DNA of 36,635 bases. Origin: Chlorobiota bacterium. Its GTDB lineage: Bacteria; Bacteroidota; Ignavibacteria; OLB7. The stretch is from contig JAGWAZ010000013.1 in the NCBI GenBank assembly GCA_021296135.1, positions 1 to 36,635 of the forward strand, in the 5' to 3' direction. Below, one piece after another: positions 80-36,310 of the stretch. The position numbers and the translations under genes were made by a program. Within the stretch, counting starts at the first letter, position 1; every line of letters starts with the position of its first letter. The notes beneath the pieces are model-generated. The model was not told the DNA's origin, did no database searches, and saw nothing but the letters and a program-made list of their open reading frames with translations.

Positions 80-300
80 TCGAACATCGTTAATCGACAT
101 TCTGACATCGAATACTGACATTTTGACACCAGATACTGTCATTTTGACATCATACACCGACATTCTGACATCATCGATCGTTAATCGAGGTTCTGAAATC
201 GAACATCGTAAATCGTAAATCTGAGATCGAAGAGTCAAGAGTCTGTTTCATCAGTGTTTACCAGTGTTTTGTTTTAGCATCAGTGTTTATCAGTGTTCCG
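80..300. repeat. Dispersed short-repeat tract
   Basis: This spacer is built from near-repeats such as GACATTCTGACATC, GACATTTTGACACC, CATCGTTAATCG, CATCGTAAATCG and GAAGAGTCAAGAGTC, then two copies of CAGTGTTTAYCAGTGTT (about 252-272 and 281-297). The same word types recur at 24060-24130 and 36225-36300. Short frames through it have no protein-like character, so I see no gene here. Confidence 0.6.
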
Positions 301-3924: not shown

Positions 3925-4165
3925 ATAAAGAACGCAGATGGACACAGATAGTGCTACAGATGAATGCAGATAATAGATAGATGACCCGAGATAGTCGATT
4001 ATAGTACTTGTCTTACTGACGCTCGACTCATGGACTTCTACAACAACATAGTGAGCTATTAGCTATTAGTCCTCCTATGGCCGATGCAATGAACCTGACT
4101 CACAACTATTCAACCATTGCACCATTCAACAATATCAACGACTCTTGACTCTTAGACTTTTGTTA
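3925..4165. repeat. Spacer of dispersed ACAGATG-, CCATTCAAC- and GACTCTTGACTC-type repeats
   Basis: The spacer carries AACGCAGATGGACACAGATAG and CAGATGAATGCAGATAATAG (about 3932-3976), then CAACTATTCAACCATTGCAC and CATTCAACAATATCAAC (about 4103-4139), then GACTCTTGACTCTTAGAC (4140-4157). The same word families occur at 8271-8472, 24100-24175, 26860-27060 and 31740-32070. No coding frame is convincing. Confidence 0.6.
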
Positions 4166-6650: not shown

Positions 6651-6757
6651 AAAAGGAATGTTTTGAATTCTGTGCTCCCTGTGGCTCATAGATAGTTGCA
6701 GGGAGTGCATGTTTCTTCATCATGTTCTCCCGACCCTCTTTTCGTATCTTCCGGTCG

Positions 6758-7486
6758 ATGAATGCGAATCCGTTAGTTGTCTCGCTTGAACGATTTGAGG
6801 GACCGCTCGATCTGCTCCTCTTCTTTATCAAGCGAGATGAAATCGACATTTACGATATCCCGATCGCCCGGATTACCGAGGAGTTCCTCGAATACACCTA
6901 TACGATGCAGATGCTCAGTCTTGAACAGGCTGGCGAGTTTATCGTTATGGCCGCCGAGTTGATGCGCATCAAAGCAAAAATGCTCTTGCCGAAAGAAGAG
7001 CGTCCCGAGGAGGAAAGAGAGGAGGAAGATCCACGGGCTGATCTGGTAAGGCGACTCCTTGAGTATAAGCAGTACAAAGAGGTTGCTGAGTCTCTCAAAG
7101 AGCGAGAGAACGAGTTCCGGAATCTACGCTATAGGCAATTCTTCAAAGGAGATGAAAAGGTTGTTGAAGAACCTACGGCCGAGGAAATTCTCTCCAGCGT
7201 TACGCTCTTTCGTCTGCTGGAAGCCTATAAAAAGGCTGTTGATCGTGCGCCAAAACAGGAAGAGATGGTCATCGAGCAAATCTCCTGGACGGTTGAGGAG
7301 CAGGCTGAATACATCCTTGACGAAATCAATAAGCGCTATCAGATGACAATGGTAGAGCTCTTTGCAGCGAGAAGTCGTATGTGGATCACTGTAACCTTCC
7401 TTGCCCTCCTTGAGCTTATCAAGGACAGACGGGTAGGTTTTCATCAGGAAGATGACAGTGAGGAAGTCATCTTCTACGAAGTATAG
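6758..7486 (+). CDS. scpA: Segregation and condensation protein A (ScpA)
   Basis: ScpA is the kleisin subunit that bridges the heads of SMC in the bacterial condensin and acts on the nucleoid in chromosome segregation. The protein starts NPLVVSLERFEGPLDLLLFF, the hallmark N-terminal kleisin motif, followed by IKRDEIDIYDIPIARITEEF and a C-terminal winged-helix region (AARSRMWITVTFLALLELIK). At about 242 residues it has the family's usual length. An in-frame ATG at 6722 would add 12 residues of basic sequence, but the second ATG at 6758 places the conserved motif at the expected distance. scpB follows 37 bp later, the usual pairing. Confidence 0.93.
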   Translation: MNANPLVVSLERFEGPLDLLLFFIKRDEIDIYDIPIARITEEFLEYTYTMQMLSLEQAGEFIVMAAELMRIKAKMLLPKEERPEEEREEEDPRADLVRRLLEYKQYKEVAESLKERENEFRNLRYRQFFKGDEKVVEEPTAEEILSSVTLFRLLEAYKKAVDRAPKQEEMVIEQISWTVEEQAEYILDEINKRYQMTMVELFAARSRMWITVTFLALLELIKDRRVGFHQEDDSEEVIFYEV

Positions 7487-7523: not shown

Positions 7524-8570
7524 ATGGCAAGACCGTCTACACCAACAAAGCCCGAGTCGTTGAAACCGATTGTTGAGGCGATGATTTTTGCGGGTGAGGA
7601 ACCGCTTGGGCCCCGAACGCTTCTTTATCTTCTTTTTGGAGAGGAAACAAGGGAGAAGAATGGTTCAGGTCGGGATAAAGATGAGACTCTCTTCGATGGT
7701 GTCGAGAATCAATCGACCGAGGTAAACAAGAAAAAGAATGGGAAAAGAGCTAAGAAAAATAAAATTGGCCAGAAAGAGTTGCGGAAAATTATTGCTTCCT
7801 TAAATGATGAGTATGAGGAATCGGGACGGTCTTTCCGCATTATTGAGATTGCCGGTGGGTTCCATTTTGCTACGGTCAAGGAATACGGAGAATTTGTCGG
7901 AATGCTCTCGAAAGAGCGTTCTCGCCGCAGACTCTCGCCTGCAGCCCTGGAAACGCTCTCAATTGTTGCCTATCGCCAGCCCGTTACCAAACCGGAAATG
8001 GAAGCGATTCGCGGGGTCAATTGCGATCAGGTACTTCTCTCGTTATTGGAACGAAATTTGATCGCCATAACCGGTCGGGCAGACTCAGTCGGTAAACCGC
8101 TTCTCTACGGTACCACAGATGATTTCCTTAGGGCGTTTGGTCTGAACAGCCTGAGCGATTTGCCAAAACTCCGGGAACTTGAGGAGTTGATGGAAGATGA
8201 TGCCTATTCTCCTGCACGAACTCAAGGAATACCTGATGAGGTGACGCAGGAGTTGCTCGAACTTGGAAACACAGATGAACAGAGATTGGAAGACACAGAT
8301 GAACACAGATCAGAAAACACGGAAACACAGATGAACGCAGATGGGGAAGAAGAGATGGACACAGATGAACAGAGATTGGAAGACGTAGATGAACACGGAT
8401 CAGAAAACACGAAAACACAGATGAACACAGATGGGGGAGCAGAGATGGACACAGATGAACAGAGATTGGAAGGGGATGAGGGTAGTGATAGTGATTCGAA
8501 GGAAGAGATGAAGTCTGATGATGGGAATTCTGTGAGCTCATCGACGAGCTTTTGCGGGCATGAAAGATAG
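7524..8570 (+). CDS. scpB: Segregation and condensation protein B (ScpB) with repeat-derived acidic tail
   Basis: ScpB binds ScpA and completes the SMC-ScpAB condensin. Family features visible here are KPIVEAMIFAGEEPLGPRTL near the N-terminus, then FRIIEIAGGFHFATVKEY and the second winged helix LSPAALETLSIVAYRQPVTK, PEMEAIRGVNCDQVL, with GRADSVGKPLLYGTTDDFL. An in-frame ATG at 7452 lies inside scpA; I chose the ATG at 7524 (MARPS) because homology starts soon after. Typical ScpB is near 180-220 residues but this one is 348. There is a lysine-rich insertion (about residues 38-80) and a tail of about 110 residues after ELEELMEDD. Much of the tail is two and a third copies of a 30-residue acidic repeat encoded by a 90-bp DNA repeat. 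The core should work as ScpB; the tail is probably disordered. Confidence 0.92.
   Translation: MARPSTPTKPESLKPIVEAMIFAGEEPLGPRTLLYLLFGEETREKNGSGRDKDETLFDGVENQSTEVNKKKNGKRAKKNKIGQKELRKIIASLNDEYEESGRSFRIIEIAGGFHFATVKEYGEFVGMLSKERSRRRLSPAALETLSIVAYRQPVTKPEMEAIRGVNCDQVLLSLLERNLIAITGRADSVGKPLLYGTTDDFLRAFGLNSLSDLPKLRELEELMEDDAYSPARTQGIPDEVTQELLELGNTDEQRLEDTDEHRSENTETQMNADGEEEMDTDEQRLEDVDEHGSENTKTQMNTDGGAEMDTDEQRLEGDEGSDSDSKEEMKSDDGNSVSSSTSFCGHER
8271..8472 (+). repeat. 90-bp in-frame tandem repeat in the 3' end of scpB
   Basis: ACAGATGAACAGAGATTGGA begins at 8271, 8361 and 8451, giving an exact 90-bp period with two full units and a partial third. The encoded units begin TDEQRLED and contain TDEH, SENT, TQMN and a D-rich end. 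The building blocks (ACAGATGAACACAGAT, AACACAGATGAAC) are those of the intergenic repeats at 3932-3976 and 31945-32050. Confidence 0.85.
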
Positions 8571-8623
8571 AAGAGAAGGAGATTCGTATTGGGATTGTAT
8601 TAGAATCTGAAAATAGATTAATT

Positions 8624-9259
8624 ATGAGCGGTTATTATTTTTTGAGAATGGTTCGGCGATCAGCCTGGGTGATATTCACATCATTTGCGATTCTGCTAAG
8701 TGGGTGCGGAGAGGGAAAAGTTGACGATGCCGATAAGGAAGCTCTGAGAACTGCTGGATATGAGGAAGGAGCAGCGGCAGATCTGAGTATATTGAACTTG
8801 ACTGAGGAAGAGGTCGCACAGCTTGAGATTGCAAAGCGTGGAGGACTTGATGGGGCTGCTGCCAAAGAGATTGTTGAGTTGATGCATGATAAGGACTTGA
8901 AATTCGATATTGGGATGGAGATGCAGACCTTGAGCCTTGCCGGATTCTCGGCAACGGCCCTCGTCGAGCTTGTAAAGATGGGAGCTGTCCGGGTATGGGA
9001 GACGGATCTTCGCGTGATGAAACATGCCGGCATTGGCGAACCGACCATTGTGAGAATAGCAGAACGAAAATTTGTCGATGAGAAGGATGACCTGTTGCCC
9101 GGACGTGATTATACTGTATTAAAGGCCGCTGGCATGTCGGATGCTGGTATTGAATCCTTTGTGAAGAACGGGGGAACGGTGCTACAACTGCAAAAGGTAG
9201 AGTTGGCAATACGGATGGGTACATCAGAACAGGCTGCGTTGAAGGAAGTTGGTTTGTAA
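8624..9259 (+). CDS. Putative lipoprotein with repeated helical motifs
   Basis: The 211-residue protein begins with a basic leader and hydrophobic segment ending in the lipobox LLSGC (Cys near residue 28), so it is predicted to be an envelope lipoprotein. The mature region is helical and carries short recurring units around an 'L..AG.....' pattern (LRTAGYEEGAA, LSLAGFSATAL, MKHAGIGEPTI, LKAAGMSDAGI), each about 30-40 residues apart. I do not recognise a named family. A second in-frame ATG at 8648 lies closer to the hydrophobic segment and is an equally possible start. It follows scpB by 53 bp on the same strand but no functional link can be claimed. Confidence 0.72.
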   Translation: MSGYYFLRMVRRSAWVIFTSFAILLSGCGEGKVDDADKEALRTAGYEEGAAADLSILNLTEEEVAQLEIAKRGGLDGAAAKEIVELMHDKDLKFDIGMEMQTLSLAGFSATALVELVKMGAVRVWETDLRVMKHAGIGEPTIVRIAERKFVDEKDDLLPGRDYTVLKAAGMSDAGIESFVKNGGTVLQLQKVELAIRMGTSEQAALKEVGL

Positions 9260-31739: not shown

Positions 31740-32070
31740 GTTTATAGTGTTATGAGTTTTTGAAGTCTGAGAGTCAAGAGTCTCTATGGTCGAGAGTCAA
31801 GAGTTCAAAGCTGAAAGCCGTTAGCCAATGGCAAATAGTTTACCACTCACAGTCCGCTGCAAGCATAACGGTTCATAAAATTCAGAAGAACAATCGTTGT
31901 AGAGTTGTTCCTGAAAGAAATGAACAACCGAAAGATAAGAAGCACAGAGGAACACAGAGAGATGAACACAGATGGACACAGATAGAGGAACACAGATGAA
32001 CGGGGATAAGGGAACACAGATGAGCGGGGATGGTGAGAGATGAACACAGAGAGGGTCCGTGTAAATCCGT
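31740..32070. repeat. Dense dispersed repeats upstream of mdh
   Basis: The 375-bp gap holds GAGAGTCAAGAGTCTC and GTCGAGAGTCAAGAGTTC (about 31769-31806), then a run of AGAGGAACACAGAGAGATG, AACACAGATGGACACAGATAG, GGAACACAGATGAACGGGG and further variants up to about 32055. The second family is the one found inside scpB. Translated on the minus strand it gives HPRSSVFPYPRSSVFLYLCP-like low-complexity frames, which I do not take as genes. Confidence 0.7.
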
Positions 32071-36035: not shown

Positions 36036-36310
36036 TAGAGAGTCGAGGGGTCGGGAATTAAGGGTTGGGAGTCGAAGAGTCGAGAGTCAAAGGGTCGAAG
36101 AGTCGAGAGCATATTTTCGCCACAGAGTGGCGGCCTGTCGCTAGTCCTGTGCGGAAGCGCAGGGCTAGCAATGGGCTTGGCTTGTACAAGCTCCATAGGA
36201 GCGACCCGTTTCCTTCTGATCTCTACATCGCACATCGTTAATCGTTATTCTGAAATCAAAGAGTTGAAGAGTCGGAAGTCGAAGAGTCAAGGGTCGAGGA
36301 GTGATCTCTA
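36036..36310. repeat. GAGTCGAGAG-type and CATCGTTAATCG-type dispersed repeats
   Basis: The spacer starts with GAGAGTCGAGGGGTCGGG and continues through GTCGAAGAGTCGAGAGTC and AAGGGTCGAAGAGTCGAGAG up to 36109. It resumes at 36226 with CACATCGTTAATCGTTATTC and GAAGAGTCAAGGGTCGAGGAG. Between the two lies a block of hairpins. No gene is seen. Confidence 0.65.
36119..36202. repeat. Cluster of three REP-like hairpins
   Basis: CGCCACAGAGTGGCG (36119-36133), the imperfect palindrome from GCTAGTCCTG to CAGGGCTAGC (36141-36170), and GCTCCATAGGAGC followed by GACCCGTTTCC (36190-36213) lie in 84 bp. They match in design the units at 36397-36546. Confidence 0.6.

Follow-up and report, generated by a model that had tools for sequence, protein, structure and literature searches.

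A copy of a mostly intergenic repeat family within the acidic C-terminal tail of ScpB

How a repeat whose words fill intergenic spacers could come to stand, in an open frame, inside the gene of a housekeeping protein is the question raised by scpB of a Chlorobiota bacterium (GCA_021296135.1, contig JAGWAZ010000013.1). The gene lies in a stretch of 36,635 nucleotides, the whole of which was analyzed and is referred to here as the window. A preliminary description, made from the sequence alone, had proposed that an intergenic repeat has invaded scpB and become an acidic protein repeat. The gene assignment made there is confirmed; the product of 7524-8570 matches the Pfam family SMC_ScpB with an E-value of 1e-47 and 162.1 bits versus a curated cut-off of 27.4, which places it in the ScpB family, and solved ScpB structures are found among its relatives. 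With the most upstream ATG as its start, the ORF would extend from 7452 and overlap scpA; the upstream ORF at 6722-7486 reads as ScpA, as judged by its sequence. The gene is composed of the following parts.

7524..8570, plus strand: scpB coding sequence, 348 amino acids plus stop (ORF list, translation, Pfam SMC_ScpB, solved ScpB relatives)
7761..8171, plus strand: conserved ScpB domain, residues 80-216 (Pfam match; confident part of the structure prediction)
8202..8269, plus strand: tail section before the repeat, AYSPARTQGIPDEVTQELLELGN (tail comparison; partial alignment with the AFSxERxxVITVD segments of relatives)
8269..8358, plus strand: 90-bp repeat unit 1 (TRF; unit comparison)
8359..8448, plus strand: 90-bp repeat unit 2, six codons differing from unit 1 (TRF; unit comparison)
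8449..8472, plus strand: partial third unit, 24 bp (TRF; unit comparison)
8473..8570, plus strand: tail end after the repeat, GDEGSDSDSKEEMKSDDGNSVSSSTSFCGHER, plus stop (translation; low coding score)

The array at 8269-8472 is reported by TRF with a period of 90, 93% matches, 0 indels, and 2.3 copies, a copy number possibly distorted by assembly, the genome being in 132 contigs. As had been stated, the scpB frame is open throughout, with 0 stops, while the other two forward frames contain 3 and 5; also correct was the remark that the reverse strand, with 0, 2, and 0 stops in its frames, gives open SVFICV-type strings. The repeat, which had been described as giving an acidic repeated tail, encodes residues 250-316 of the 348-amino acid protein and thus lies inside the tail, with 32 further residues following. 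The core of ScpB is predicted confidently, and from residue 249 onward the structure prediction is of low confidence (about 44-56) and devoid of secondary structure. No inverted repeats are found in 8240-8640, the array folds no better than shuffled sequences (z 0.73), Rfam yields no match at gathering score in 8000-8800, and a plasmid search with the array as query yields no match.

The words of the array recur elsewhere. With up to two mismatches, ACAGATGAACACAG occurs 15 times in the window versus 0.34 expected from shuffles, and these occurrences are confined to 3934-3969, 8271-8464, and 31944-32049. The two spacers that had been said to be filled with the same words are confirmed by word search.

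3933..3971, plus strand: intergenic word-family copy in sense, 22 bp past the stop codon of the ORF preceding it
31943..32050, plus strand: intergenic word-family array between two minus-strand genes (TRF and word searches)

Over the whole genome, the CRCRGATGRACRCRGAT word pair (at most two mismatches) gives 77 matches in 49 clusters, with 1 match for the reversed control. Its building blocks are degenerate words, each some 10 bp long (ACACAGATGA), and the family is dispersed and mostly intergenic. A more uniform unit, CACTGATAAACACAGATGCTAAAACATTGATGGAACAGACCC, with adjoining GACTCTCGACTC-type repeats, is seen in the spacers of L144-L146, L154 (near 2307), and L156; a string similar to it is located on the opposite strand at window positions 240-300, and at 36038-36106 the window contains a spacer tandem repeat of the GAGTCGAAGGGTC type, of the same kind as the repeats beside the CACTGATAAACACAGATGCTAAAACATTGATGGAACAGACCC unit.

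The preliminary description had suggested counting the repeat genome-wide in coding and non-coding positions. Nine of the 49 clusters are located inside an ORF, as called around the fetched sites with our own hexamer score and no standard gene finder, and two more (purD, clpP) overrun an ORF end. Given a coding share of 72% in the sampled DNA, about 35 clusters would be expected in ORFs versus the 11 observed (P(≤11) ~9e-13). Some of the nine are probably chance matches. The single weak matches in L147, L148, L153, L159 (at 2606), and L161 were judged to be probably due to chance and were left out of the insertions; that of L147 lies in an iron-dependent repressor gene, at the end of the FeoA domain.

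These figures bear on a coding origin of the repeat, which had been offered as the alternative and according to which the unit was born in scpB and pieces of it were copied to spacers. The longest array with 90-bp periodicity does sit in scpB. However, intergenic copies share the 10-bp words and not the 90-bp unit, the best full-array matches elsewhere span only parts of the scpB array, and other lineages carry the same words at sites other than scpB. With the majority of copies lying between genes and none in the scpB genes of relatives, such an origin is most improbable. On the sequence comparison, scpB looks like the recipient and not the source.

Among relatives, the 16-base word, searched with one mismatch, has no match in four genomes of the same family (G001-G004), the comparison being at family level and showing no empty site by which the event could be dated. 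The exact 17-base word is found, among 396 genomes of the phylum, in the own genome and G202 only, and with one mismatch in one of the 36 genomes reached via ScpB matches; occurring in so few genomes, it is therefore uncommon among named relatives. Related words are present in other arrangements elsewhere in the class and phylum, for instance as alternating facing copies in G050 and as 47-bp tandem units in G202, where one locus (L283, G202:C30:40800-45000) carries long 47-bp tandem arrays of ACAGATG words. The exact 17-base word is also contained in 41 stretches of a viral collection.

The ScpB proteins of G001-G004 have tails of 59-201 amino acids with 25-44% Asp plus Glu and without the repeat. 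Since such tails occur in four genomes that lack the repeat, the acidity of the tail is the older feature, and the idea that it arose from the repeat is not supported; comparison of sequences and predicted structure indicates that an acidic, disordered tail predates the repeat, which is an addition to it. It had been argued that relatives with the same tail encoded by non-repeat DNA would point to an ancestral protein feature. This applies to the acidity, which is ancestral; the TDEQRLED sequence itself was not found in the tails of same-family relatives. Acidic ScpB tails of widely differing length are common across the class; those of the relatives L034, L035, L042, and L051 comprise 179-380 amino acids with 32-54% Asp plus Glu, some being visibly repetitive at the protein level. 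The literature searched contained nothing pertinent to an acidic ScpB tail. In the window, the tail comprises 122 amino acids with a net charge of -30, of which the repeat contributes 67 amino acids and -21, leaving a non-repeat remainder of 55 amino acids, a length near that of the tails of G002 and G004 (59 and 66), the nearest relatives.

Four other genes of the genome end in the repeat.

purD (L154), in sense: repeat over the stop codon, encoding the last 10 residues
SpoU-family methylase gene (L178), in sense: repeat over the stop codon, encoding the last 17 residues
Flavin reductase gene (L172), in sense: repeat over the stop codon, encoding the last 13 residues
Short-chain dehydrogenase gene (L160), in sense: repeat over the stop codon, encoding the last 10 residues

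For the first three, the Pfam domain does not reach into the repeat, and homologs in related genomes end differently, without these ends; the short-chain dehydrogenase has no good homolog in the related genomes compared. A further candidate, clpP (L166), was left out of the four, its gain being one residue at most. Together with scpB, five out of five such genes carry the repeat in sense (p = 0.06), and the other four show in milder form what is most pronounced in scpB.

That spacer-type repeat DNA has turned coding in scpB is supported by the sequence data, with 77 matches lying mostly between genes and the repeat missing from G001-G004; this part of the preliminary description stands, though to call it a clear case of non-coding repeats feeding protein evolution was too strong. 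A normally intergenic member of the repeat family would have come to lie towards the 3' end of scpB, within or bordering a disordered acidic tail already present in this family of bacteria. Tandem duplication of the 90-bp piece would have followed, its length, divisible by three, preserving the frame. Read in sense, two of the three repeat frames are stop-free and would give a hydrophilic, acidic peptide (TDEHR, QMNTD); the insert may have been tolerated because such a peptide fits a flexible, acidic tail and, in that terminal position, disturbs nothing folded. The 67 added residues probably drift neutrally. We infer the order of insertion and duplication, as well as neutrality and translation. 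Taken as a whole, the account of an intergenic repeat that entered an existing acidic scpB tail, was duplicated, and is now tolerated and drifting is the best explanation, and we regard it as probable.

Repeats at or on the stop codons of several genes suggest a different route, in which the repeat already lay just past the scpB stop and loss of that stop fused the spacer repeat and downstream sequence to the gene, replacing the old tail end. Such a capture would fit the low coding score of the segment following the repeat, which could be decayed repeat. Yet this segment (GDEGSDSDSKEEMKSDD) resembles an old tail in its acidity, and the acidic tails of all four same-family relatives are longer than the 23 residues that precede the repeat in the window. 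Capture is thus conceivable but rather unlikely, and 8473..8570 may be either old tail or decayed repeat or spacer.

Returning to insertion into an existing tail, six codons distinguish the two complete units (T/V, R/G, E/K, A/T, E/G, E/A), all six differences being non-synonymous, for which the probability without selection is about 0.23. Because all six differing codons are non-synonymous, there is no sign of selection on the insert; drift can account for the count, which reveals no constraint, six codons being too few to exclude weak selection. The same comparison weighs on the idea that the insert was retained because ScpB works better with a tail of greater length and acidity, for instance through altered DNA or partner binding. 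Length and charge may matter, as acidic ScpB tails are widespread in the class and vary greatly in length, and the insert adds a net charge of -21. Against this, synonymous-only differences between the units are missing, and three of the six differences fall on glutamates of unit 1 (E/K, E/G, E/A; direction of change unpolarized). We consider adaptive recruitment improbable, and there is no sign so far of a separate function for the added piece.

Within the genome, the gene ends located -40 to 60 bp from non-ORF clusters comprise 13 of the 3' sense, 4 of the 3' antisense, 9 of the 5' antisense, and 1 of the 5' sense type. The left end of the repeat is directed towards the gene in 22 of 27 cases (p = 0.0015), in a count where one cluster may score at two gene ends and the decaying right side of the element is unmeasured; part of this bias may stem from the search pattern. 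With each cluster assigned to its nearest gene end alone, the numbers are 14, 9, 14, and 3, respectively. Six spacers, as read by eye, contain a plus copy followed by a facing minus copy (L152, L159, L164, L165, L172, and L178), L159 having in addition a minus copy followed by a plus match, the latter in an ORF. The facing order recurs in four stretches of the viral collection (L210, L211, L214, L216). This arrangement is a lead and not a test. Long hairpins are formed by L210 (z -13.5) and L274 (z -7.2) and none by the scpB copy; scpB would hold one stop-free arm only. Extending this, the words could be palindromic elements at gene ends, common to unrelated bacteria, of which one stop-free arm repeatedly gives housekeeping proteins new hydrophilic C-terminal ends, that of ScpB being the longest, a generalization we regard as doubtful.

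Summarizing, scpB offers a small and verifiable instance of spacer DNA turned protein sequence. A suggested reason for its location in the tail is that the sense-read repeat is mostly stop-free and acidic and would do little harm at a disordered acidic end. With purD and three further genes as milder cases, gene ends are a place to count such events. The scpB insertion is a known type of event; a description of its word family was not found in the literature searched, the coverage of which is incomplete.

Among known systems, disordered acidic C-terminal tails of ScpB are the setting; the repeat sits in one, and the tails of relatives, where read, are without it. REP sequences are palindromes of 20-40 bp, most with a tagged end (PMC3733652, PMC2817692); the present family resembles them in being dispersed and extragenic, and some of its members form hairpins from facing copies. 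MITEs, including RU-1 and Correia elements, have a fixed unit, terminal inverted repeats, and target-site duplication; L210 and L274 form long hairpins, whereas the scpB copy does not. The enterobacterial RU-1, RU-2, and RU-3 and other MITE-like repeats are intergenic, contain open frames, occur as in-frame fusions with genes, and have been proposed as suppliers of new peptide, RU-1 to RU-3 being units of defined extent (103-168 bp) that show MITE features (PMC2759123, PMC2229807); the present unit, in contrast, is degenerate, without fixed ends established. Rickettsia palindromic elements (RPE), of 105-146 bp and with terminal inverted repeats, are dispersed repeats that occur between genes and also, read in frame, within protein genes, many of which are conserved (PMC2229807). 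The present family likewise occurs in spacers and in frame in protein genes, namely in scpB and at the ends of purD and three others; it differs in its host lineage and in that the scpB array is built of short tandem words, without inverted repeat or long stem-loop. Without claiming membership in either family, we regard the scpB event, by analogy, as one of a known kind, acting like an RPE or RU-1 insertion.
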